Assembly (NCBI GenBank): GCA_944383695.1
Contig: CALWQP010000013.1
Coordinates: 1 to 64,000, forward strand
DNA from: an uncultured Mediterraneibacter sp.
GTDB taxonomy: Bacteria; Bacillota; Clostridia; Lachnospirales; Lachnospiraceae
DNA: 64,000 nt
Reading direction: 5' to 3'
Within the stretch, counting starts at the first letter, position 1; the number at the start of each line of letters is the position of its first letter. The notes below the pieces were generated by a model. It did not search any database, was not told the DNA's origin, and saw only the letters and a program-made list of their open reading frames with translations. Shown here one piece after another: positions 9,344 to 64,000 of this stretch. The translations under genes were made by a program, and so were the position numbers.

Positions 9344-12300
9344 CTACCTGAGTTCCGGTATGCCGCCTGAAGAGAGACTGTCAAAGTTCCATATCTGCTC
9401 GCTCCAGCCAAGATTGTCAATATAGAAGGATTTCTCTGCCGCCCGCTCTTTTGAGACAGAATAGACGACAGATGCGGTCGCATCACTCAGATTTGTATGA
9501 CTGTTGGATGTTTCCAGCTCATACGCGCTACTGGCGATGTTCAGCACATTCCAGCCGGAGATCCGGTTTGCGTTCTCTCCGGTGCTCAGGCTTACTGAGC
9601 ACTGAAGCACTACACTGCCGTTGTTCGGTCCGCCGATTAGCCCGCCATTTCCGGTCCTGCTGGCAGCGGTAATGTCAACCTTTGTGTAGCAGTTGACGAG
9701 GATACCGCCTCCTGCCCATCCGGTGATACCGCCAGCCCGTCCCCCAAGTTGGTTGGAAAGGGTGACTTTAATGCTTCCGGTCACAATACAGTTTTCCAGT
9801 CTGTTTCCGTCAAACTGCCCGGCAATGCCACCCACCGTGTTGTTTGCCTTGATGGAAGCATCCAGAACCGAGATCCGGCTTACCGTGCTGCCCGAGATCG
9901 TTCCTGCAAGACCGCCGACCTGGTTGGAATCGTTATCAATGGTCAGATTCTTCACCCGGATGTTTTCAATCGTTGCATTCTGGATGGCGTTGGAAAGCGC
10001 TCCCTTCTGGTTGTTGGTCGTAAGGTGCGTCCCTTCCAGTGTGAGATTTCTGATATCCGCGCCGTTCACCTGCTGGAACAGCACTGCGTTCAGCCCACGG
10101 ATCGTATGTCCCTGTCCGTCTATCGTCCCGGCAAATGTGCCGCTGACCGCGTATTCAGAGACATTCATCTGGGTGAAATCAAGATTCGCTTCCAGCACAT
10201 ATTTCTTTTTCAGGGAGGTAGGAGATTCGCCGATGGCAAGAAACTCCTCTGCCGTTTTGATGCGGCTCTCTCCGATGGTAACTGACGTCTCCCCATACTC
10301 ATAGTAACCGTTTGTCTTTGTTTTCACCAGCGGAAGCTGCAGGTCCGCGTCCACGACCTTTACATCCCCGACAGTGACCCGGTTTGCGTTCACTGCCAGC
10401 AGCGCCTGTGCCTCCCCTTTATATACCGGTGACTCAATGGTAAAGTTCTTCACATGGGCATGCTGGAGATTGCCGAATATCGGATAATGTACCCCGGTGA
10501 TCTGGTAACCGGCTCCGTCAAGGATGCCGGTAAACCTGCCGGAAATATAGCTGCCGTTCACGGCCTCAATGTCGGAAAAGTCGATATCATCAGCCAGTTT
10601 ATAGTATCCATAAGGATTCTGAGCCACATAGTCGATCAATTCCTGTGCCGATGTAACAGATATCACATCCGGGCTATCGTAGATCGTTCCCTCTGTAAAA
10701 TCTCCGGTCACACGCTTCACCAGCCCGTAAAGCATACGCTTTGTCTCCACGCTCTGGTTAGCGTTTCCGTTGGACGCATCTGCCTCAAAGGCAGCCTTGA
10801 ACTGGGCGATAACAGTTTCCGCGTCAAAATAGGGGATCTGATCCAGCTTCTCCGCCACCTGGCTGTACCGGTTCATCTTGTATTCCCTCCAGGTAATATC
10901 TTTGTCTCCTGTGATCTGCCGGAGAGCGTCCAGATCACTTGTCGCCCGGCCGGACATATAGATCGCATATCCATTCTCATAACCGCCTACTCCCAGCATC
11001 TCATAGCCAAGCCGTTTGAATGAGTGAGTGTCCGGCGAACCATTATCATTATGAGACTGATACCAGTTCATCATATAGAAGGACTCATAGCCATAGCTTC
11101 CCGAATAAGCTGTTGGTATTGACTGAGGAACTTCTCCGCTTCGGACGGAGAGCTTATTATCCCACAGGTCGCCAACATCATTAAGCTCCATCGCTTCAAT
11201 CTGTGCCTCCGACACCCTCGCATATACGGTGCTTATGGAATTCCTCTGACCTTCCGCGTGAGTTGCCTGAACAGCTACCGCTGCCTGCTGGCGTGGTGTG
11301 AGCTGCAGGAATGCCTGGGCGGCAAGATAATCCAGCACATATCCAGTCTCAAACATCTCACGGTAATAGCTGTGTATCTCCTCCTTGGAGTCAATGCGTT
11401 CATAGCTGAAATTGCTGCTTGTTTCAACTGTAATGTCATCAATCCTGGAAATATTAAATACCATACTTCCATCACGGCCGCCTACGGAATCCTGGGCGAT
11501 GTTGCCGTCAGCGTGCGCCTCTCCGCCTGTGCCTGATCTTCTTCCCGCTCCGCCGTAAAAATACCTTCCATCCTGATTATGGGCGGTCTCATGGCTGAAC
11601 GTGTAGAAGGTGTAGTCGCTGCTGCTAAGAGCCGCGTCCTGCATCCAGACCACAATGGACCCGTTTGCAAAGGCAGCGCTTCCGTTATTCGCGCCCAGCA
11701 TACTGTTTGCTTCATAGACCCACTTCATGACCGGGTCTCTCGTGGTCCCTGCGTCCTGACTTCCGGCTGCGGCTGCAGTGCTTTCCGGAAAATGCATCCG
11801 TGTATCAAACTGGATGTCAACCACGCTGTTTAACTGCTCCACTGAATTATCCAGCCATGTTGAGGAAGTTCCGTAGAATATCCCCATCTTATCCGCGTAC
11901 GCCTGTGCAGTGGCACGGATCCTCTCTCTTTCCTGACCGTCCTTCTTCAGATAATCCGAATACCGGTTCATGCTCCCAATGAGAAACTGGGATGGCACGG
12001 AGATCAGATACATATCTTCCTGAGGCGCTGACAGGATGGAGAGGATCATGTTCCTTCTGTCGCTGCGCACATTGCTCAGGTTTTCCCACATACGGTACCG
12101 GATGGCATCCTTGTTTACACCATAGGCAGGCTGTTCCACCAGTACTCCTTTGAACACAGCGGTAAACCAGTCATTGGCATTTTCATATCCTGCCACTTTC
12201 ACCGCCATATCCTCCAAAAACGCGGTCAGTTCTTTTCCGGTGTAGCTTTGGAGCACATTGCTGTACAGTGTATGGGACTGCCCCACGCCTCTTTGCGCCT

Positions 12301-15300
12301 GCGCCGCTGACAGAAGCTTGTCTGTCAGCGTTTTGGCGCTCATGTCAGAGGATATCAGCTCTCCGCTAAAGAACATCAGGTCACTCAGCCTGACTCCGCC
12401 AAAATCAATGTAGTACCATTTCGTATAATAATTGTAAGCATACAGAAGCCGTTTTAACTCATCTTCATTCTGAATGCGCTCCCGCGCAAGTGCCTGCACT
12501 CCCGCATTGTCACTGTAAGTCGGATATTCCTCCTGGGACGAATACAGCTTTGCCAGCACAGCTTCCAGATTGCCTTTGACATTCTCATTGTAATAGTCCG
12601 TGTAGAGCCTGCTCTCCTCCTCTTCTGTCAGGGAAGCAAGGTTTTCCGTATAATCATAGTCCGACGCCAGAGCTGTCATCTGGCTGAAAACGGTATCATC
12701 AATGGCTGACACATAGTGGCGGAACTGATAGAGCAGCCCGGTGTCTCCGATGGTGTAGACTGCCACGATATTCCCTGCCAGATTTCTGTATGAAACAGCA
12801 TATTCTTCATTGGTTCCATCGGTGAATACAACCCGGATCCTGCCGATCACTCCGGGATTGTCCCGGCTTACTCCAACGACCAGACTGCCGCTTTCATCCA
12901 GTGGAAGGATGGCCTCGATCTCCCCGGAAAGAAGCCGGTCTGTCTCTGACAAACTGTTGCCGGACGCCACCCATACAGCCGTGTCCGCAAATGGCGCCAG
13001 CTTTGCCATGTTGGCATAAGCTAAGTCCATCTCCGAACGGTAAGCCTTATTTGCTGTCACTTCCTCGTATGCCGGTATATCATACACGTTTTCCCCGGAA
13101 GGAGTATTTTTAAGAGTCGGCAGCTTGCCCTGCGACAGAGCGTCCAGATTCCATACAGCCCCGTCAAATCTCAGGGTATCCTCATAAAAGCTTCTTTCAT
13201 AAATGGCATCCGTCTCTTTCACGTTTGCGTTGTTCGCGCCCGTAATGTTCGTTGTGCTGTCTGAACCGGAATATTCATACACTTCCGTAACACTGCCAAG
13301 CACATCAAAGCCTGCGATCCGATAACCGGATCCCCCGCTCACACTGAGGCTGTGTTCGATCTGTGGGCTGCCTGTGTTGGGGCCGCCGATCAGACCGCCG
13401 CTGCCTTTGGGGGAGGGGCTGCTGATCTGTACCCAGGTATAGCACCGGCTGATCACGCCTCCGGCGTGCCATCCTGTGATGCCTCCCACCCGGGCTCCCA
13501 ATGTTGTCTGGTCATAAAGCCCCTGAAGGGTGCCTGTCACATAGCAGTCCTCAATCCGTGAACCTGCATTGATCTGTCCGACGAGACCGCCCAGCGTGGT
13601 GTTTGACCGCAAAGACACATTGATCGCCGCGCTCTTTGAGATAGTAGAATCATACAATTCACCTGCAAATCCGCCCATCTGGTTCACCCCTGAATTGGAC
13701 ATGGTGGAATTGATGACAAACACATTCTCGATCCGAGTGTTATTCCGAACGGAGTTTGCCAGGATACCATTCCGGGCGGTTGTGATCTGTGCGTCCTCGA
13801 TCACAAGGTCGGTGACAGTCGCCCCATTCAGGGTACCGAAAAGGGATGTGGGAAGGTTCACGATCCGGTAGCCGTTTCCGTCAAGCTTCCCGGTGAATGT
13901 CCCTGCCACTGCCGCCGCACTTGTAGAAATCCCTGATGCGTCCAGATCCTGAGTGAGCTGGAAGCTGCCGCTCGGTTCAGCCGCCATTTGTTCAAACAGT
14001 TCCTGAGCGCTCTTCATCAGAGGGTGCTTCCCTTCTGCATCCTCATATGTGAGGGGTACCAGATATTCTGCCATTTTCGTACCGTCAGCAGCATACTGGA
14101 TCAGATCTGCCTGATCCACCACCGCATATACCCTTCCGGTCTTCTCGTCCTGCCTGAATTCCCGGACGCCGGCATAGAAATCCGGCAGATCGTCCATCTT
14201 GATCTGCACAAAATAACTCTCCGGATCTTCCGGCAGACCGGCTGTGATATCCAGTACCTCCACCTCGGTCTGTCCGCTTCCGCCGGCATAGTACAGAGCT
14301 GCCTCTGACACCTCTTTTAGTTCAATGGCATTGGGGGACGCGTTCTCCTGGTCAATATATACATTCTTCTCCAGCACGGTCTCATTCTCTGCCTGGACGC
14401 TGCCGTCCTGGGACTTGCTCCATGTGAGGAGGACCCGGAAGATATAGTTGGTCTTTTGCTCCGTATCAAAGGTAAACTCCTGAGCCCCGGTCTGTGTGAC
14501 CGCTTTTTCTGCCTTCACCTCTCCGTCCGGGGTGACAAGCTGTGCTTTCCCGGAAACAAAGGCACTGTCAGCATCCGTAAGGGTGAACCGGAAAATAGTT
14601 TTCCCCTCCCCGGAAACATATTCTGTCTCGTAGCCGGATGCAGCAGGAGCTGATCTGAGCACCTCTGCTGTCAGTTCATGATCGGCTGAGAGCGTGGTCT
14701 CATCGTCATAGACAATCTGCGTAAGGATAAATGTCCTGCTTCCTGCCTGGTCTCCCGCAGGAGCCGTCACCTTCCACGTTCCGTCCTGCTGTGCCTCTGC
14801 GCTGATCTGCTGGTTGTTTACCACAAGAGCTGTAATATCTGCATCCACGTTGTCACTGATCGCATAGAACAGGTCCACACTTCCACCTTTTTCCACCTGT
14901 TCCATGCCAGCGCGCCCGCTGGATACAACTGCCCGCTTTGCCGCCTCAATTGTCTGCTCTGCAAGGACTTTTCCGGTTTCCAGGCTGCTTCCGTCTGAAG
15001 ACAGGTCGAGATCTGCTGTGACCCGCACTGTATATTGGGAGGTAAGTCCGGTGTCTGTCAGAGGAATCTCCCCCTCGAACAGGGAATCCGCAAGGTCGTC
15101 CGCTGTAAAGGAACGCTCAGCCACAGCCACTCCCTCTGCATTCTCAACAACTACTTTGTGCCCGGACAGCGCATTATCCGGGTCGGTGAGCCGGAACGAC
15201 ACCCGGATCTGACCGTTCGCCGTATCTTCCTCTGCTGTAAGCCCCTCTGCTGTGGGCATTGTCTTTTGAATGTTGACTTGGATCGTATTTTCGTCTGTCA

Positions 15301-17119
15301 GATTAAATGCCTTTCCATTTTTCAAGACGATCTGCTCTACTTTGACCTGTGCAGGTCCGATCTGGTCAATGCCGTCCATCCTGACCATATATCCGCTGCC
15401 TGTCTGCTCCACCGGATAGGAAGTCCCATTTACCACAGCTCTCTCCGGGATCAGCCCGATGGCGTTGGTTGTCTCAAAGGTAAGGAAAATGGGCTGGTTC
15501 CTGCCAAACTCATCTGCCGGCGTGCCATCCTCAAACCCTGCCCTCAGTCCGCTGAATGTAAAGGCATAGTCCAGATTAAGCTGGAGGTCTCTGCTTTCCA
15601 CAAAGCTGCCGGTATGGTCCTCCGTTGTCCCAAGCTCGTCCCTGCTCCGGTTATAGCTTCCTCTTATGTACAATGTATAGGCAGCGCCGTCCTCCAGATC
15701 AAGGACGAACTCTTTCTGTCCAGCCGTGATCTCCTCTGTGAGAAGGGGACTGTCTTCGGACGCTTTCACTACTTCCACTGACGCTCCTGTCAGCGCGGCA
15801 TCCTCATCCTTTAAGGTAAAGGAGACGTTCATCTGCCCGGTCTCATTTATCTGCTCGCTGAGAAAGCCCTCCACCGAGGGCGCTGTTTTCAGCACTTCGA
15901 TCTTCTCTGTAAAGTCTGTGTCCACGGTCTGCCCTGCATCCAGACGGACTCCAGTGACGCGCAGCTCCCGGATGCCCGCCTCATCTCCAACACCAAGGCG
16001 GACTGTGTATACCGGACTGTCCGCAGCCTTTTCTGCCGGGTACTCTATCCCATTTACTGTCATGCTCTCGATCACCGCGTCCTCAGAGACGCTTGCGCTG
16101 AGCTTCAGTTCTGCCTGCTCCCCTTTTTCATAATAGAATTTTTCTGTTGCGGAAGTCAGCTTTACTTCATAATTTATGTTCTGTCCTGCCTGGGTCATCA
16201 AAAGAGACAGATCTGTGACCGTAAGATTCCCATCAGAATTCATATCCGCGGCGCTCTGAAAGCCGGAGGAAAGTTCCTGAAGGCTGATCAGGTGTTTCTC
16301 TAAAAGCTCCACGTCCGTATGATCCACTCTCCCATCTCCGTTCAGATCCCCTTTCCCGGTAAGCGCATGTACGCCGCCTGCCGCAAGGAGGACCGCAGCC
16401 GAGCAAGCCACAAGGACGGTCAGAAGCCTGGCTCTGCCGCTCAAGCGCGCCTTTTTCCGGGCAGCGAGCACGACGCACGCCGCCACTGCCGCTCCCAGTG
16501 CGATGCCTGCAAGGAGGAGAAAGCCTGCGGCCGTATCACCGGTCCTCACCCCGGAAGTCCCGGAGGAAGGAGATGCCGCTGAAACCTGCTCCTGAGATGC
16601 GAAAGCCTGCTCCTGGGATGCCGAAACCTGCTCTGATACCGAGGAAAGCATAAGGACTTGGTCTGTTGGCAGAAGATCCTCAACGCCTTCTGACACAGAG
16701 ACATCGGTCACTGATATGTACGTCTCCTTTGCGGGAATGGACTGCTTTGCCGTCAGCTGAAGGCTCATCACAGGCTCCTGCTGTGTGCTGCCCATTCTGC
16801 TGACTAGGACAAACTGTCCGTTCGCCGGATTGTAAAACAAGCTCTCCCATGTATTTAACGTCTGGAAATCCGACGCCTGAATCTCCTCAAATACTTCCGG
16901 GTCATAATTCAGTGTGCCTTTTATGGCGTTTACTCCAGTCTGGATATCTGTGTACCCGCTGAGAGCAAAGGACACCTCCATCTGGTCTCCCTTTCTAACG
17001 GCTGTATTTTCAGATGTGATCTGCATCCCTTCCACACTTGCTGCCTGTGTCTCCATGCCGCCAAGAACCATGGTACACAGAGCAAACAGCACTGCAGACA
17101 ACGCTTTTATCTTTCGCAT
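9344..17119 (-). CDS. Giant surface zinc metalloprotease, M26/ZmpB (IgA1 protease-like)
   Basis: 2591 aa. Order: signal peptide (1-26); cohesin-like beta domain (~28-158); sorting-type motif VRTGD (191-195); hydrophobic helix (~198-220); basic RKKAR; second helix (~232-252); type I dockerin with two Ca-loops (~256-312); at least three related Ig-like repeats (~320-1000); GLUG-type beta-solenoid (~1070-1285); M26 catalytic region with HETAH (His1843, Glu1844, His1847) and likely third ligand Glu1867 in GTGGE; then a further degenerate GLUG copy (~2185-2270) and a full one (~2335-2545). The internal sorting signal plus paired helices matches the layout known from streptococcal Zmp/IgA1 proteases, leaving the protease outside the cell. 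Substrate (IgA, mucin or other) is unknown. The start has GGAG only 3-4 nt upstream. Confidence 0.9.
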   Translation of the reverse strand: MRKIKALSAVLFALCTMVLGGMETQAASVEGMQITSENTAVRKGDQMEVSFALSGYTDIQTGVNAIKGTLNYDPEVFEEIQASDFQTLNTWESLFYNPANGQFVLVSRMGSTQQEPVMSLQLTAKQSIPAKETYISVTDVSVSEGVEDLLPTDQVLMLSSVSEQVSASQEQAFASQEQVSAASPSSGTSGVRTGDTAAGFLLLAGIALGAAVAACVVLAARKKARLSGRARLLTVLVACSAAVLLAAGGVHALTGKGDLNGDGRVDHTDVELLEKHLISLQELSSGFQSAADMNSDGNLTVTDLSLLMTQAGQNINYEVKLTSATEKFYYEKGEQAELKLSASVSEDAVIESMTVNGIEYPAEKAADSPVYTVRLGVGDEAGIRELRVTGVRLDAGQTVDTDFTEKIEVLKTAPSVEGFLSEQINETGQMNVSFTLKDEDAALTGASVEVVKASEDSPLLTEEITAGQKEFVLDLEDGAAYTLYIRGSYNRSRDELGTTEDHTGSFVESRDLQLNLDYAFTFSGLRAGFEDGTPADEFGRNQPIFLTFETTNAIGLIPERAVVNGTSYPVEQTGSGYMVRMDGIDQIGPAQVKVEQIVLKNGKAFNLTDENTIQVNIQKTMPTAEGLTAEEDTANGQIRVSFRLTDPDNALSGHKVVVENAEGVAVAERSFTADDLADSLFEGEIPLTDTGLTSQYTVRVTADLDLSSDGSSLETGKVLAEQTIEAAKRAVVSSGRAGMEQVEKGGSVDLFYAISDNVDADITALVVNNQQISAEAQQDGTWKVTAPAGDQAGSRTFILTQIVYDDETTLSADHELTAEVLRSAPAASGYETEYVSGEGKTIFRFTLTDADSAFVSGKAQLVTPDGEVKAEKAVTQTGAQEFTFDTEQKTNYIFRVLLTWSKSQDGSVQAENETVLEKNVYIDQENASPNAIELKEVSEAALYYAGGSGQTEVEVLDITAGLPEDPESYFVQIKMDDLPDFYAGVREFRQDEKTGRVYAVVDQADLIQYAADGTKMAEYLVPLTYEDAEGKHPLMKSAQELFEQMAAEPSGSFQLTQDLDASGISTSAAAVAGTFTGKLDGNGYRIVNLPTSLFGTLNGATVTDLVIEDAQITTARNGILANSVRNNTRIENVFVINSTMSNSGVNQMGGFAGELYDSTISKSAAINVSLRSNTTLGGLVGQINAGSRIEDCYVTGTLQGLYDQTTLGARVGGITGWHAGGVISRCYTWVQISSPSPKGSGGLIGGPNTGSPQIEHSLSVSGGSGYRIAGFDVLGSVTEVYEYSGSDSTTNITGANNANVKETDAIYERSFYEDTLRFDGAVWNLDALSQGKLPTLKNTPSGENVYDIPAYEEVTANKAYRSEMDLAYANMAKLAPFADTAVWVASGNSLSETDRLLSGEIEAILPLDESGSLVVGVSRDNPGVIGRIRVVFTDGTNEEYAVSYRNLAGNIVAVYTIGDTGLLYQFRHYVSAIDDTVFSQMTALASDYDYTENLASLTEEEESRLYTDYYNENVKGNLEAVLAKLYSSQEEYPTYSDNAGVQALARERIQNEDELKRLLYAYNYYTKWYYIDFGGVRLSDLMFFSGELISSDMSAKTLTDKLLSAAQAQRGVGQSHTLYSNVLQSYTGKELTAFLEDMAVKVAGYENANDWFTAVFKGVLVEQPAYGVNKDAIRYRMWENLSNVRSDRRNMILSILSAPQEDMYLISVPSQFLIGSMNRYSDYLKKDGQERERIRATAQAYADKMGIFYGTSSTWLDNSVEQLNSVVDIQFDTRMHFPESTAAAAGSQDAGTTRDPVMKWVYEANSMLGANNGSAAFANGSIVVWMQDAALSSSDYTFYTFSHETAHNQDGRYFYGGAGRRSGTGGEAHADGNIAQDSVGGRDGSMVFNISRIDDITVETSSNFSYERIDSKEEIHSYYREMFETGYVLDYLAAQAFLQLTPRQQAAVAVQATHAEGQRNSISTVYARVSEAQIEAMELNDVGDLWDNKLSVRSGEVPQSIPTAYSGSYGYESFYMMNWYQSHNDNGSPDTHSFKRLGYEMLGVGGYENGYAIYMSGRATSDLDALRQITGDKDITWREYKMNRYSQVAEKLDQIPYFDAETVIAQFKAAFEADASNGNANQSVETKRMLYGLVKRVTGDFTEGTIYDSPDVISVTSAQELIDYVAQNPYGYYKLADDIDFSDIEAVNGSYISGRFTGILDGAGYQITGVHYPIFGNLQHAHVKNFTIESPVYKGEAQALLAVNANRVTVGDVKVVDADLQLPLVKTKTNGYYEYGETSVTIGESRIKTAEEFLAIGESPTSLKKKYVLEANLDFTQMNVSEYAVSGTFAGTIDGQGHTIRGLNAVLFQQVNGADIRNLTLEGTHLTTNNQKGALSNAIQNATIENIRVKNLTIDNDSNQVGGLAGTISGSTVSRISVLDASIKANNTVGGIAGQFDGNRLENCIVTGSIKVTLSNQLGGRAGGITGWAGGGILVNCYTKVDITAASRTGNGGLIGGPNNGSVVLQCSVSLSTGENANRISGWNVLNIASSAYELETSNSHTNLSDATASVVYSVSKERAAEKSFYIDNLGWSEQIWNFDSLSSGGIPELR

Positions 17120-52764: not shown

Positions 52765-55700
52765 TTATCTTCTTCTGCGTCTTGATATTACCGCAGCCGC
52801 TGCGCCTGCTGCCATGAAGATAACTGCGGTGTATCCGGCAATCCTGCCAAGATCAGTCATATCACCACTTTTTACGGCTCTTTCATCCTTTGCTCCGCTG
52901 CCAGACGTTGAGGTATCAACTTTCTCAAAACGCGCCTCAATCACAAGATCGGACGTGACAGGCTGTGAGAAGTCATACTCCTTATCCCCTGTGTACCAGC
53001 CGATAAACTTATATCCTTCAAGCGCCGGGTCTGCCGGACGCGCGAGAAGTTGTCCATCTTCCACCATGACCGCCTGGCCGTTGATCGTTACCGTATGGTA
53101 GATCGCGCCAGGAGCAGCCGCTTCATAGACTGCTGTCAGAGCTGTGTCCGCTGATGGGATCAGTGTATATTCATATCCGGTATAGATAATGCTGCCGTCT
53201 GCGGTTCTCCATCCGAGGAAATTGTATCCTTCTCTCACAGGAGCGATGATCGTCACCTGTCCTCTGTCGTCCATCTCACTGACAGTGACTTCTACTCCGC
53301 CTTCGGCGCTAAGGGTTACTTTATACTGTGTAAATCTGGATTCAACCTCCATGTCGCCTGTGACCGGCTGCGTAAAGTCTGCCTGTGTGTCTGTTCCCAC
53401 AAGATAAAAGCCATCAAAGCGGTGTCCCGGCTTTTCCGGTGTCTCGATCACCAGGGTCTCGCCATCTTTCACCTTGTACTCCGTCCCATCGACAATCACT
53501 GTATGCGTTGACTCCTGCATACTGTTTTCATAATCGGTGAGAGCTGCGTCAAGGGCCGCTGCCGCATCGGTAATCTCTCTCTGCGCCGCTGCTGCATTCC
53601 CATAAGTATTCTTCGCCAAAATGAGCGCCTGCTCCAGCGCTGCTGCCTCTGCACTGCTGTCAGATCCCGGATCATTTTCCGCGATGATCTTCTCTGCTCC
53701 GGCGATCAGTCCGCTCAGCTCCGTTCTGTCTACCTTTTCGAACACCTCAAGCTCGCTGACAGCATAGTAGGTTGTATTTCTGCTTACACCCTGTATCTTC
53801 ACATACCGCGCGGTCACCGGAGTGTCCAGGGTCACCTCGCTGATGGAAGCACTGTTGTTTCTCACTTGTTCCACAGTATCCCAGCTCGTTCTGTCCATGG
53901 ACACCTGAACGTCAAATCCGGTTGCCCAGTTCTGTCCCTGCCAGTTCACAACAACCTTGCTGACATCGCGCTCTTCGCCCAGGTCTACCATAAGGTAATC
54001 ATTATTGCTGCTGTTAGAACTGCGCCAAAATGAATGCGGGTCTGTTGATGGTGAAATACCTGCTTCTGCATCTGTCTTGTCTCCGTCCGTCGCCTTATAT
54101 GCCGGATGGTATTTCAGCGCTCCTGAATTTTGTGTAGTGATATCCGGCTGGCTGCCGTATCTCTCTGCATATGCGTTGCGGTTCAGAGCCACGTTGACTT
54201 CCGTCACTTCCGATACATCTGTACGGAGCATTTCAGGTTGCAAAGCCTTGTTATAGGCTTTGATATTCCCGATATATCCATGGAAATTTTCACCGATGGT
54301 CTCCATAGGAAATACAAATGTACTGAAATACTGGTCTGTTTCTCCCGAATCCGTCCTGTACAGCATCTTTACAAGCTCGCCGTCCACGTACAGCTTTGTA
54401 TTGCGTGCAGTTCCGACGATGGTGATATTCACTCTTTTGCCGACAGGTAGCTCATAGTCAAAGGACTGGTGATAGAACATTCTGTTCAGAGACATATTGT
54501 TATTGCCGATCCCTTTTGCCAGAAGCTGTCCATCATAGCCGGAAAACAGAAGGGAATCCTCCGTGTTTCCTTCACCTGCCTGTACGTCAAAAGATATGGT
54601 ATACGGATAAGAAAGGGTCTGGAGCGGCGTGGTCATAACAGTGTCTCCGTCAAATGCGATCATAGCTCCGGTGTCTGTCTCGATAATCTCTCCGCCTGTC
54701 ACCTGGGCGTCATATCCGTTTCCGCTGCTGTCTTTTACTGTGATAGCTCCGTCTGACACTTCCGTCCTGCTCATATCATAATCCGCCACAACGTCTGTCT
54801 CGCTGTCGATGGACATTGCGATCTGTGTGCCCGGACCTTCCTGAAGCCGGTCAAACGTCTGCTGGTATTCAATATAATCGTCTGTCTTCTCAGAACCGCC
54901 CCATGTCTTTTCAGCGACCATTGCCACAGAGCGCAGCGCTCTCTCATGAAGGTCGGCTTCCACGACACCTTCACGGAACTCATCTCCCCAGATAGATGCC
55001 TTTGCTCCTAAAAGGAGAGGTTCGCCTGCCTCCGCCCGGATATTTCCGTTAAAGATCGTAGGATCCCAGTTCTTGTAGAGCCACTCTTCCACGATCATGT
55101 CCTTGTGATCTCTTCCCGGCGTGGTGTAGAGATAGGGCTGTGGGAAGTTAACAACGCGGAATCCCTCTTCCAGACGCGCGATCGGATCTTCCTCATAAGT
55201 CGCCCACACGTCAATGATGATATTGTCCGGTGAAATTTCCGTCTTGCCTGGGAACAGTTTCAGAGCTCCCCACATACGAGTCGTCTTCCCATAACTCTGC
55301 ATCAGTTCGTCAAGGAATACGATATACTTGCGGAATGCCTCGGGATTTGACTTATCCCAGTATTCATCAACGCCTATGTTTACAGTGTCGCCGGTAAACA
55401 CCGGGTCATCTCCGCCCAGATAGTCAGCATACAGGGTCTCCATGAACTTTCTCGCAGTCCGGGCCTTCTCAGCCTCTGTTGTATTCGAAGAATCGACGTC
55501 AAGGGCAAGCTGCTGTGGATCATTATTTGACTGGAGCGGTCCAAGCCAGGAAATATTGTCAGGATTTTCCTGTGCATACCGGATATAAGCATTTGAGTGG
55601 GACGGCGTGTCAAACTCGGGGATCAGCTCGATCCCGCCCGCATTTGCCATCCGTTCCAGATTTCTGTAATCCTCTTTTGAATAAACCGGATCACTGTATA

Positions 55701-57789
55701 CTTCATTAAAATAGTCAAATTTCTCTCCTGTATATACACGGTTATCTGTCAGACTCGGAAAGGCATCACTTTCCAGCCTGTGCATGCCGTTCCATACGCT
55801 TCCGCTGGGAAGACCTTCCGGACTGTACTGGAAGTCGTCATTCAAATGGAGCTGGAACTCATTCATCTTATACCATGTAAGGATCTTGGTATAATCCTCC
55901 AGATACTGCAGACGATGTGGGATCCTTCCCACGTCAAACATTACCCCGCGGATCTCATAGTCCGGATAGTCTCTTATCACTCCGTAAGGGACATTGTCAT
56001 TTCCCTCATCCTGCCAGAGGAGCTGCTCAACGGTGATCGTCCCATAAAGGCATCCCGAATATGTACTGCTGTAGATACGGATCCCCTTGTCATCCACTGT
56101 CATGAAATATCCTTCGTCCCCGACATCATAGACATCCGAACCCTGTGATTCAATATATATATCCGCCGCCGTGACATCCACCTCTGTACCGGAGACGATC
56201 TCCGGAGTCACGCCTGCAAACTCGGCAAGGTCATCCAGCATATTCTGAGCGACAGCCTGAAGTCCCACGCTGGCGGTGTCATTGATGATGATCCTTGTAT
56301 CCCCGCTCAGCGTATAAGCGCCTTCATATCCGTACCATTCCTGAAGAGTGGGGATCACGGAAGGCTTCCCATTCGGATTTGCCACAGTGGGATAAAGATC
56401 CGAATACAGCCCATTCTTGGACGGTATCGTCACTGTAAAATTCTTTCTTTCCAAATCCGCATTCTCGTCTTCGGCCCCGGATACAGCGCGCACTTCTACA
56501 AGAAGCGTCACTTCAATATCTCCGATATTATGATCTGTGATAGCACCGTCGTTTGAGACAACGCCTTCCCTGTCACTGCCCACGACAGCGATCTCAAATC
56601 CTTCCGGCACTTCCGGAAGCTCGATCTGAACGCTGTCCACAGTGGGCGCCGGCAGCTCTGTGATGGATGCCATCACTTCCGCTGCGGTCTGAGGAGTCTC
56701 CACTGGCGGTACATAAGTCTGGGTACCATTGATGGTGATCTCTCTCACAGAAACTCCAGTTCCGCCCGCGTTAACATTGATCTTCTCAAAATAGAAACGC
56801 ACATAGCGCTGCAAATTAACTGTACTTGTCTCATCTGCCCCAAAAGTATCGAAGACATCAGTCTGGTCGTCTATTCCCTGTGTACTTGACCTCGCAACCG
56901 ATGCAACTGTTGTCCACTCCGCTGCATTCGCTGTCGCCGCAGTCTCGATCCGGTACTGAGTCGCCCATACCTTCAGATAGAAATCAATCTGTATGCGGTC
57001 TGCCACGGACTGCTCCGCCCCAAGATCGATAACAAGCCACTGAGGAGTCTGGTCTGAGTCGTCTGTAATATTATTCTCCTTCATCCTCTCGCTGGACCAT
57101 CTTGTATCGTTATTGCCATCCACGGTGTTCGAGCCCACGTTCTGTGGCATTGCCGTCTCAACAGTGGATGTGCTCACACTTTTATTCAATGCGATATTTC
57201 CGGTCACAAGCTGCGTCCCCTGGATGTCAATCTCCGTGATGGACACGCCTGTCCCGCCTGCGGTATAGTTGACTTTTTCAAAATAAAAACGGACATACCG
57301 TTCCAGAGTGGCAATCCCCGGAACCTCCGTAGAATCAAACCTGTCTACACGCCCGGAGTTGTTCATATTCCCATCACGAGAGATACTATGTACGGTCCTC
57401 CATTGGGTATTATCATCATTGGTCGCCGCCGTCTGGATCTGATAGTCAGATGCCCATACATGAAGATAGAAATTGATCGTTATACTCTCCACCTGCGTTT
57501 CCGAAGCCTGGAGATCTATCGTCAGCCACTGAGCCGTCTGTGCCGTATCTGCCGCAGCGCCGTTCGGTTTCATCCTTTCGCTTGACCACCTTGTCCCCTC
57601 GTCCCCATCAACTGTGTTGGCGCCCACATTTTGCGGCATTGCCTGTTCCACAGAAGACACAGTCACCGTCTTCCCAAGCGCCACATTCTCCGGATCAAAA
57701 CCATCGGCATTTACAGACTTCCCCGGAAACACAATGCTTGTAAGAATCATTGCAAGCGCCGCCAGAAAACTGATACATCGCTTTTTCAT
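52765..57789 (-). CDS. Cell-surface GH20 beta-N-acetylhexosaminidase with F5/8-type domains
   Basis: About 1674 aa. Signal peptide (1-28); two F5/8-type C (discoidin/CBM32) domains (~34-193, ~197-357); GH20b domain (~478-600); GH20 catalytic barrel (~610-960) with the Asp-Glu pair D808-E809 in NIGVDEY; LamG-like domain; a third F5/8 domain; FIVAR-like helical repeat; two or three InlB/List-Bact repeats; C-terminal VKSGD, hydrophobic helix and RRRRR. GH20 enzymes release terminal GlcNAc/GalNAc or lacto-N-biose from glycans, which fits mucin or milk-glycan use. Which linkage is cut cannot be decided. Start at 57789 chosen for the signal peptide and GAGG. Confidence 0.92.
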   Translation of the reverse strand: MKKRCISFLAALAMILTSIVFPGKSVNADGFDPENVALGKTVTVSSVEQAMPQNVGANTVDGDEGTRWSSERMKPNGAAADTAQTAQWLTIDLQASETQVESITINFYLHVWASDYQIQTAATNDDNTQWRTVHSISRDGNMNNSGRVDRFDSTEVPGIATLERYVRFYFEKVNYTAGGTGVSITEIDIQGTQLVTGNIALNKSVSTSTVETAMPQNVGSNTVDGNNDTRWSSERMKENNITDDSDQTPQWLVIDLGAEQSVADRIQIDFYLKVWATQYRIETAATANAAEWTTVASVARSSTQGIDDQTDVFDTFGADETSTVNLQRYVRFYFEKINVNAGGTGVSVREITINGTQTYVPPVETPQTAAEVMASITELPAPTVDSVQIELPEVPEGFEIAVVGSDREGVVSNDGAITDHNIGDIEVTLLVEVRAVSGAEDENADLERKNFTVTIPSKNGLYSDLYPTVANPNGKPSVIPTLQEWYGYEGAYTLSGDTRIIINDTASVGLQAVAQNMLDDLAEFAGVTPEIVSGTEVDVTAADIYIESQGSDVYDVGDEGYFMTVDDKGIRIYSSTYSGCLYGTITVEQLLWQDEGNDNVPYGVIRDYPDYEIRGVMFDVGRIPHRLQYLEDYTKILTWYKMNEFQLHLNDDFQYSPEGLPSGSVWNGMHRLESDAFPSLTDNRVYTGEKFDYFNEVYSDPVYSKEDYRNLERMANAGGIELIPEFDTPSHSNAYIRYAQENPDNISWLGPLQSNNDPQQLALDVDSSNTTEAEKARTARKFMETLYADYLGGDDPVFTGDTVNIGVDEYWDKSNPEAFRKYIVFLDELMQSYGKTTRMWGALKLFPGKTEISPDNIIIDVWATYEEDPIARLEEGFRVVNFPQPYLYTTPGRDHKDMIVEEWLYKNWDPTIFNGNIRAEAGEPLLLGAKASIWGDEFREGVVEADLHERALRSVAMVAEKTWGGSEKTDDYIEYQQTFDRLQEGPGTQIAMSIDSETDVVADYDMSRTEVSDGAITVKDSSGNGYDAQVTGGEIIETDTGAMIAFDGDTVMTTPLQTLSYPYTISFDVQAGEGNTEDSLLFSGYDGQLLAKGIGNNNMSLNRMFYHQSFDYELPVGKRVNITIVGTARNTKLYVDGELVKMLYRTDSGETDQYFSTFVFPMETIGENFHGYIGNIKAYNKALQPEMLRTDVSEVTEVNVALNRNAYAERYGSQPDITTQNSGALKYHPAYKATDGDKTDAEAGISPSTDPHSFWRSSNSSNNDYLMVDLGEERDVSKVVVNWQGQNWATGFDVQVSMDRTSWDTVEQVRNNSASISEVTLDTPVTARYVKIQGVSRNTTYYAVSELEVFEKVDRTELSGLIAGAEKIIAENDPGSDSSAEAAALEQALILAKNTYGNAAAAQREITDAAAALDAALTDYENSMQESTHTVIVDGTEYKVKDGETLVIETPEKPGHRFDGFYLVGTDTQADFTQPVTGDMEVESRFTQYKVTLSAEGGVEVTVSEMDDRGQVTIIAPVREGYNFLGWRTADGSIIYTGYEYTLIPSADTALTAVYEAAAPGAIYHTVTINGQAVMVEDGQLLARPADPALEGYKFIGWYTGDKEYDFSQPVTSDLVIEARFEKVDTSTSGSGAKDERAVKSGDMTDLGRIAGYTAVIFMAAGAAAAVISRRRRR

Positions 57790-57860
57790 TCCTTTTTCCT
57801 CGCTTTCCCTTTTTCTTTTCCCATAACCTGTCCATTTTTGAAGCAAACATATATACTTTT

Positions 57861-62401: not shown

Positions 62402-64000
62402 CTATTGTGCTCTTTTCCTTCTGTAAACTGTCATTCCAAAGAGGATCGCACAGGATGCAAGAAGCCCTGCATACACCATCGCCATATCCGAGCTGTCCCC
62501 GGTAGTAGGAGTTCCCGAGGTATCTGCCGCTGTCTGTGTACTGCCGGCAACAGTAGTCTGTGTATTGCCCGGAGTTGTCTGTGTATCTCCGGGTGTTGTC
62601 TGTGTGTCTCCGGGAGTAGTGGTCTGTGCTGCTCTCCAGCTGATCATGATCGGAGACAATCCTGTAACGCTAAACTGGATTCCCGCATTAGTTTTCGTTA
62701 CAGCAGGAATCTCAATTTCGCCGGGCTGTTTTCCGAAGTCAGCGCTTGTAATCATGTGAGCTACCGTAAAGTCATGAGTGTTCATTCCGGTACCTGCCGG
62801 ATAAGGCATGGTCACCGTAAGTCCGCCGTTTGTCCCAAAGTGCTCAGGACCTGCAATGATCCATCCGCTTCCTTCGTCAACCATCAGAGTCACATTGTAC
62901 AGAGACGTATTTGTCGCATCAGCGGACACGCCTGTCTGAGCGATGGATGTCTGGATCGCTGTCTGGATCTTTTCCGGTGTGTCCAGAGAAGTGTTGCCTA
63001 CAAGACTATCCGGCACAGTAGTGATTCCTGACTCAAGGATCAGTTTCATGCTGTAGCCGGAAGACGATGCGGGAAGAGTTACCTCCTGTGCCTGTGAACC
63101 GAAATAGACTGCGTTCACTGTCATATCAGAGGTCACATTGGTGATGCTTCCCGGATTCCAGACCGGAGAGATCGTATCGTATCCTGCCTTTGTCGGAATC
63201 GTGGGGAACACCGTCGGAGCTAAGCTCTCGCCGTGTCCGACCATCACAGTGCCGATAGTTACTCCGTCTGCCACAAAGGTTATCGTATGTGTTAAATATT
63301 CCATAATTTCAAAAGTTACATTCCCAACAAAAGATATATTGTAGTTTGGATTCAGATCGTTTGTGAGAGTTCCCTGCGTGATCGTATATGTTCCGATCGT
63401 TTCTCCTGTTGCACGAGAAAGTTCTCCCTGAAGGGTCTCCCCAGCAACTACACTGCCTGATGTAACAGTATATGTGAGTGTCGGATCAGCCTGGCCTTCC
63501 ACCTTCTTTTGTCCGGCATCCGGAGTTATGGTCACCGAACGGCGCGTGATGGTCCCGGCAACAGAGACAGTTGTCGCTGCAAGCTGATAATTGACTTCGC
63601 CTGCCGTGTTGAGAGCGATTCCTGATGCAGTGATCTGATTTGCTGTGCTTACATCAGCGCTGTTATAAGCATAGGACTGTGCTGACGCGCTTACCGTATC
63701 CCCGGGCACGACTCCTTCCAGTCCAATGCTGATCCCGCTCGGTCCATTGGTCGTCCCATCATATTCTTTTGTAGTTGTCCCATTCAGGACAGGAGTCACC
63801 GTCGCCTTACCAACCGTCACTGTGATCCGGCTGCTGACACCAGTCTGTCCTCCCACAGTCGCCTGACAATAATATGTATATGTCCCTACGCCAAGCCCTG
63901 TCGGCAAAGTATAAGAAGCTGCTGTCGCATTGGAAACAGGTGTGGCACTTCCCTGCGCATCCACCTGATACCACTGGTATGTCGCGCCTGTTCCGTCCAC
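62402..64000 (-). CDS. Repeat-rich cell-wall protein, C-terminal part (5' end outside window)
   Basis: 532 residues visible; the frame is open to the window edge. Order: Ig-like domain, YDG-type segment (TTKEYDGTTNG), MBG-type segment (KKVEGQADPTLTYTV), an InlB-type repeat (IGTVMVGHGESLAP), a beta domain, a TTPGDTQ repeat (three copies, encoded by near-identical DNA), then TPTTGD, a hydrophobic helix and RRKRAQ. This is a sortase-type C-terminus. Likely adhesin or structural surface protein. Confidence 0.85.
   Translation of the reverse strand: MDGTGATYQWYQVDAQGSATPVSNATAASYTLPTGLGVGTYTYYCQATVGGQTGVSSRITVTVGKATVTPVLNGTTTKEYDGTTNGPSGISIGLEGVVPGDTVSASAQSYAYNSADVSTANQITASGIALNTAGEVNYQLAATTVSVAGTITRRSVTITPDAGQKKVEGQADPTLTYTVTSGSVVAGETLQGELSRATGETIGTYTITQGTLTNDLNPNYNISFVGNVTFEIMEYLTHTITFVADGVTIGTVMVGHGESLAPTVFPTIPTKAGYDTISPVWNPGSITNVTSDMTVNAVYFGSQAQEVTLPASSSGYSMKLILESGITTVPDSLVGNTSLDTPEKIQTAIQTSIAQTGVSADATNTSLYNVTLMVDEGSGWIIAGPEHFGTNGGLTVTMPYPAGTGMNTHDFTVAHMITSADFGKQPGEIEIPAVTKTNAGIQFSVTGLSPIMISWRAAQTTTPGDTQTTPGDTQTTPGNTQTTVAGSTQTAADTSGTPTTGDSSDMAMVYAGLLASCAILFGMTVYRRKRAQ

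Follow-up and report, generated by a model that had tools for sequence, protein, structure and literature searches.

In streptococcal M26 proteases, the sorting motif is followed by two helices. The pneumococcal LPNTG domain was reportedly the subject of work by Bender and Weiser in 2006. Three papers, in their available parts, describe N-terminal LPXTG signals in these proteases (PMC7695701, PMC9637739, PMC7939560), in line with what the sequence-only reading of the present DNA had stated. The available text of one of them describes covalent attachment of the M26 enzyme to the cell surface by sortase (PMC7695701), whereas that of another reports cleavage of M26 IgA1 proteases 56 residues downstream of the N-terminal LPXTG motif (PMC9637739). 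Because the signal lies at the N-terminal end, a cut within it should part the M26 enzyme from the wall. The relevant section of the latter paper assigns at least one G5 domain to streptococcal M26 proteases and mentions neither cohesin nor dockerin. A review of gut proteases published in 2026 (PMC13271334) nowhere uses the words dockerin and cohesin. Among the matches listed in a search of the open-access literature, with most subscription journals and all preprints outside its scope, none dealt with an M26 protease that has a cohesin or dockerin anchor.

Here we describe a 2591-amino-acid M26-type metalloprotease precursor that combines an internal sorting signal with a cohesin and a dockerin. 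It is encoded at 9344..17119, on the minus strand, of the window, that is, the whole 64,000-nucleotide stretch analyzed, which belongs to contig C13 in the draft genome (2.84 Mb) of an uncultured Mediterraneibacter sp.

Architecture of the precursor and its host genome

The open reading frame, all features of which lie on the minus strand, shows Pfam matches to M26_N, M26_C, Dockerin_1 and Glug. The protein is a member of peptidase family M26, with M26_N (172.7 bits against a gathering score of 27.7) and M26_C (140.5 against 22) both far above threshold. The catalytic region (residues 1446-2062, 10934..12784) contains the HETAH motif at residues 1843-1847 (11579-11593) and, 24 positions past the first histidine, a glutamate that is a candidate zinc ligand. 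As in streptococcal IgA1 proteases and Zmp proteins, there is an N-terminal LPXTG-like motif (VRTGD) followed by two helices. The NCBIfam Zmp models score far below their cut-offs (ZmpA, 222 against 3000 bits), and no G5 domain is among the Pfam matches up to an E-value of 1 over the whole protein; since no G5 domain was found and the substrate is not established, we do not label the protein an IgA1 protease or Zmp.

GLUG solenoids flank the catalytic part on both sides. The first (residues 1053-1337, 13109..13963) overlaps M26_N, and the second (residues 2307-2591, 9347..10201) was recognized by its likeness to the first, with 40.8% identity over 289 columns in a segment-against-segment comparison. 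When the full-length protein was compared with itself by BLAST, no match off the diagonal was reported; comparison of segment against segment gave matches and did not resolve the Ig repeats. The region called Ig-like (residues 312-922, 14354..16186) has only a weak Big_13 match and is mostly missing in relatives of about 2050 amino acids, in which the cohesin-dockerin module is present.

The N-terminus begins with a signal peptide (residues 1-27, 17039..17119; hydrophobic windows from residues 3-6, cleavage site placed by eye) and a cohesin domain (residues 28-164, 16628..17038). Pfam Cohesin gave 18.3 bits in one scan and 24.3 in another against a gathering score of 24.1, and because Pfam alone is ambiguous, the cohesin call rests on the fold: structure prediction yields the cohesin beta-sandwich, with the cohesins of Clostridium perfringens glycosidases (2vo8, 2jh2, 2w1n) as the best structural matches. 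The internal sorting motif VRTGD (residues 191-195, 16535..16549) is kept in relatives and shows the same pattern as C-termini of this genome. It is followed by helix 1, taken as transmembrane (residues 197-219, 16463..16531; hydropathy, and a helix in the predicted model), the basic loop ARKKARLSGRAR, taken as cytoplasmic (residues 220-232, 16424..16462) and lysine/arginine-rich in relatives, and helix 2, a putative second signal peptide that ends in VHA (residues 232-252, 16364..16426; hydropathy, and likeness to the N-terminal signal peptides of the split genes described below). The TG motif, hydrophobic helix and basic tail together have the composition of a cell wall sorting signal, and the whole chain contains three hydrophobic stretches (19-residue mean of at least 1.6), namely the signal peptide and those starting at residues 194 and 228. 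After the second helix, GGVHA leads into a type I dockerin with two calcium-loop/helix repeats (residues 255-311, 16187..16357), which scores 45.4 bits with Dockerin_1 against a gathering score of 22.9 (E-value 9e-12) and 51.9 bits in the genome search. By sequence, the module finds its best matches in the PDB among dockerins, and the block means of pLDDT over most of this domain are 92-97. The elements that the sequence-only reading had picked out, namely the cohesin-like domain ahead of a sorting signal, the VRTGD-helix-basic segment with a second helix, the type I dockerin, the HETAH protease and the doubled GLUG solenoid, are all present, and this observation is confirmed.

The host genome has four sortase matches. 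The sorting-signal profile PF00746 gave 25 weak matches here and, at an E-value of 10, also responded to 13 of the 14 genomes used as controls; because it is unspecific, C-termini were read directly, and 12 of the 20 loci read have an open reading frame ending in xx[TAS]GD, a helix and a basic tail. Within the window, an MBG/YDG protein (62402-64000, minus strand), the start of which lies past the window, has the C-terminal sorting signal TPTTGD, and a 1693-amino-acid GH20 protein (52765-57846, minus strand), in which Pfam also finds F5/8 type C domains, suggests use of host glycans.

Two M26 proteins with the module are encoded in the genome, the window protein and a paralogue, and they carry both of its dockerin matches. 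There are three cohesin matches, in three separate proteins, a count from a draft genome that may miss parts and that misses the cohesin of the paralogue. A cellulosome would have a multi-cohesin scaffoldin and several dockerin enzymes, parts of which the draft could miss. Besides the window protein, cohesins occur in a GH31 protein with F5/8 type C and FIVAR domains by Pfam (L007:2-4978, plus strand), with a degenerate dockerin-like loop just ahead of the cohesin (by eye) and the C-terminal sorting signal VETGDTA...RKKVR, one of the 12 such C-termini above, and in a 490-amino-acid protein (L008:2861-4333, minus strand), the cohesin of which is barely above the Pfam cut-off. Inspection of the latter by eye suggests a single membrane helix and a strongly acidic tail at the C-terminus. 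Both cohesin proteins could be alternative partners of the dockerin. The genome also encodes a third M26 protease (L046; G000:C9:34000-48000, a frame of 1787 amino acids), in which the signal peptide is the sole hydrophobic stretch and both cohesin and dockerin are absent.

Conservation and split forms of the cohesin-dockerin module

A search of 146 related genomes with PF07580, which covers the catalytic region only, gave 30 M26_C matches in 24 genomes, and the cohesins and dockerins of these genes were scored with profiles built from the family. Cohesin and dockerin share a frame in 22 genes, whereas neither domain is found in three (L046, L049 and the distant L039), and not one of the 30 has a single domain of the two. 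Three further genes are broken, with both domains in upstream frames (L055, L065 and L066, the cohesin piece of the last being found in separate searches), and two have their start past the contig end. Beyond these 30, a broken remnant (L069, G015:C37) has a cohesin without a dockerin in the 8 kb examined. Five broken genes of M26 proteins with the module (L055, L065, L066, L129, L151) are spread over at least two frames each, through real decay or assembly error.

We aligned 28 modules, that of the window included and some of them near-identical (L056, L065); L066 and L069 were left out because the cohesin and the rest lie in different frames or the dockerin is missing, and the loci of the module scan described below were not part of the alignment. 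A sorting motif is present in all 28, in 24 as [VI]x[TAS]G[DN] (by script) and in four as PL[TA]GD; the motif of L055, L057, L064 and L067 was placed by reading the alignment. At the end of helix 2, just ahead of the dockerin, all 28 have [AVIT]-x-A (by eye). Joint inheritance in one gene is in itself no proof of contact between the cohesin and the dockerin.

A scan of genome contigs with the module gave 62 loci, many on contigs already in the M26_C set. An M26_C match in some frame accompanies the module in 58 of these (all except L122, L140, L143 and L145), and no cargo other than M26 was seen among the 62. In 398 genomes drawn from the phylum, with up to five candidates scored in each, the full module was found only in the genome under study; three others gave matches confined to the dockerin range. 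Among 26 distant fused open reading frames selected by hand from the 62 loci, 15 have a clear TG motif (by eye), often in the canonical form LPKTG, LPQTG or IPNTG. The other 11 have no clear motif, and seven of these are Tenericutes or Bacilli records; because of these 11, a sortase cannot be necessary in every form, and their cohesin may simply be retained in the membrane. The same module occurs in another type of M26 protein, in which HETAH is replaced by HEFEH, HEMEH or HEYEH (L125, L126, L128, L131, L133, L136, L137, L138, L144, L146, L150, L154).

The module lies in pieces in four genomes of other Clostridia (G146-G149). The cluster of G147 starts with a protein consisting of a signal peptide, a dockerin and the M26 protease (L184:2340-10280), followed, after an intervening frame, by a 318-amino-acid adaptor that combines an M26-type cohesin with a dockerin of another type (L184:12280-13233). 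Directly after the adaptor comes a second signal peptide-dockerin-M26 protein (L184:13237 on, into L185), which is followed by a 400-amino-acid cohesin-dockerin protein and then by a cohesin protein of 250 amino acids that has LPKTG plus a helix (L185:5770-6519). The same pair, with the adaptor directly ahead of the signal peptide-dockerin-M26 gene, is found in G146 (L186). The adaptors of G148 and G149 are 98-99% identical to that of G147, and the contig pieces past them stop ahead of the catalytic region, so that we count about two independent split cases. Since the adaptors have a further dockerin and no sorting signal, the anchors of the split genomes would need one extra step. The split loci mean that cohesin and dockerin are also parts of different chains encoded by neighboring genes, and stand-alone counterparts of both halves of the fused protein occur in other Clostridia (cohesin-LPKTG-helix proteins of 232-250 amino acids and signal peptide-dockerin-M26 proteins), in keeping with the sequence-only reading, in which the two halves look like complete proteins. 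Helix 2 of the fused proteins and the N-terminal signal peptide of the split protease A have a common IGTVYG core, and the split forms point to a mechanism for the fused protein. In G151, the genes for a sortase and for a large protein with a dockerin flank that of a cohesin-LPKTG protein, which matches Cohesin and Gram_pos_anchor of Pfam. Rows of a sortase, a cohesin-LPKTG protein and a large protein with a C-terminal dockerin, at L192:4967-10001 and L193:1340-4999 (both on the minus strand; sortase identified by Pfam in L192 and by likeness in L193), appear to be minimal three-gene cassettes for cohesin-dockerin display.

The cohesins and dockerins fall into types when scored with profiles (74 and 91 non-identical rows, respectively), in which members of the 28-module alignment score high by construction and the adaptors and distant forms do not. 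Dockerins of the M26 type, in frames whose start resembles that of the module or of its dockerin half, score at least 65.7 bits, and all other dockerins, including those from 18 loci of the genus, at most 37.1. M26-type cohesins, both fused ones and those of the 318- and 332-amino-acid adaptors, score at least 81.6 bits, except for a 38-residue cohesin piece of the broken gene L129 (24.6 bits), and the other cohesins, from the 400-amino-acid, 1259-amino-acid and wall-anchored proteins, at most 56.9. The adaptors pair an M26-type cohesin with an other-type dockerin, as would a link from protease to wall. Among 58 genomes of the genus, 31 have a dockerin, which in 24 is in an M26 module, and 20 of these 24 have no other dockerin (draft genomes, tallied by hand).

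A tree built from 60 M26_C domains places the split protease L156 together with L155 (support 0.983), the dockerin frame of which also begins with a signal peptide. These two group with L126 (support 0.959) inside a clade of eight (support 1.0), the rest of which are fused or, in the case of L135, broken in frame. Because L156 nests among fused genes, at least this split arose from a fused gene that came apart. The other split type, represented by L184 and L186, branches as sister to the larger clade. The module-less L046 and L049 stand beside fused genes (support 1.0) and appear to have lost the module as a whole. By hydropathy, they keep the signal peptide and have no C-terminal anchor or other hydrophobic stretch, so that they should be free enzymes, and L046 is probably the free form of the M26 protease. 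Nine tree labels (L050, L052, L055, the upstream copy of L128, L129, L135, L149, L151, L155) reflect contig ends or frames that are broken or masked, and call for caution. An old gene fusion, which the sequence-only reading had considered as the origin of the fused gene, is partly supported: the stand-alone halves exist, but the nesting of L156 within fused genes speaks for the opposite direction in that case.

A proposed self-anchoring mechanism

We consider it probable, from sequence comparison, that the N-terminal 311 residues form a self-anchoring module, such that one precursor would yield two products held together by cohesin-dockerin binding. The first signal peptide would export the chain, which would then span the membrane twice and leave the basic loop on the cytoplasmic side. 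Sortase would cleave the internal xxTGD motif and join the cohesin fragment, ending at the motif threonine, to the wall; signal peptidase would cleave past helix 2, between VHA and LTGKGD, releasing a protease that starts with the dockerin after V-x-A. A wall-fixed cohesin, from the same or a sister precursor, would catch this dockerin through calcium-dependent, non-covalent binding. Two products are predicted because the internal sorting signal precedes a helix that has a signal-peptide counterpart in split relatives, and the predicted signal peptidase site lies about 58 residues past VRTGD, which nearly matches the 56 residues past the motif given in the available text for the cut in IgA1 protease (PMC9637739).

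Contact between cohesin and dockerin is suggested by their matched types, by their inheritance together and, indirectly, by the predicted model. The predicted model of the module has a pTM of 0.66, where the cohesin makes up 46% of the length and the cohesin and dockerin together 65%; this value is close to that for the two domains placed together and above that for the cohesin alone. It is weak evidence for contact because, in the adaptor used as a negative control (cohesin with its own other-type dockerin; alignment of 7 rows), the dockerin was unfolded in the model (pLDDT 30-48, pTM 0.43). For the fuller scenario, we see the balance as even: a single precursor would yield a sortase-fixed cohesin and a dockerin enzyme freed by signal peptidase, and in some Clostridia this arrangement would have been unpacked into a small protease cellulosome of wall cohesin, adaptor and dockerin-M26.

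The precursor might instead stay uncut, as a two-pass membrane protein in which the two helices and the basic loop would hold the chain, and the cohesins and dockerins of different molecules would link into a surface protease mesh. The 11 distant fused forms without a clear TG motif and the presence of two such proteins in one genome are compatible with this possibility, which we nevertheless regard as unlikely, given the motif in all 28 aligned modules, canonical LPKTG in many distant forms, the conserved [AVIT]-x-A site, the use of the same stretch as an N-terminal signal peptide in split genes, and the downstream cleavage of M26 IgA1 proteases reported in the available part of PMC9637739. 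Cleavage could also proceed as proposed with other partners, so that a different cohesin would take up the dockerin, and other enzymes or a host ligand would bind to the anchored one, an arrangement for which the further cohesins of this genome, the adaptor between protease and wall in split genomes and the C. perfringens glycosidases as sources of the nearest solved cohesins could be cited. This seems rather improbable, however, when 20 of the 24 genus genomes with an M26-module dockerin, draft as they are, offer that cohesin no other dockerin, and when the M26-type cohesin and dockerin co-occur, fused or neighboring, with the other scored cohesins in another class. That both domains are relics without a binding role, with the double helix alone anchoring the enzyme, is very hard to credit: although one scan placed the cohesin below the Pfam cut-off and that of the paralogue was missed, the mean majority fraction is 0.61 in the cohesin and 0.72 in the dockerin against 0.29 in the linker and 0.41 and 0.50 in the helices, and the short forms that drop most of the Ig-like sequence keep both domains.

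Comparison with known surface enzymes

The self-anchoring mechanism that we propose for these M26 surface proteases is well supported by comparison. With the streptococcal and Gemella M26 proteases (IgA1 protease, ZmpB-D), as far as the sources describe them, the protein studied here has in common M26_N, M26_C, HExxH and the N-terminal sorting motif; it differs in that Pfam finds no G5 domain and in that the GLUG solenoid is doubled. Both a covalent sortase link and a downstream cut are reported for the M26 enzyme in the available texts, and a family of putative self-anchoring precursors suggests how the two could be reconciled, an answer that two small domains suffice to test. If the proposal is true, it explains why the cut does not cost the cell an enzyme whose sorting signal is N-terminal, describes a distinct mode of surface enzyme display, and adds the M26 proteases of gut bacteria to the systems assembled through cohesin and dockerin. 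The module would also offer surface display a natural tag of compact size.

The C. perfringens cohesins that match best in structure are non-cellulosomal and sit in glycosidases; we know of no case in which these are paired with an internal sorting signal and a dockerin. For a double-dockerin S8 protease of C. thermocellum, the available text suggests that the dockerin may tie the protease to a cell-bound cohesin (PMC12484212), as proposed here, but this enzyme belongs to another family, and dockerin and cohesin are on separate proteins. ScaE, a scaffoldin of Ruminococcus flavefaciens, is described in the available part of PMC2930009 as a single cohesin with LPXTG that is anchored by sortase and receives a dockerin, the role that we propose for the cohesin fragment; ScaE, however, is a separate gene in a cellulosome of many parts, whereas here the anchor is fused to the single enzyme that it would hold.
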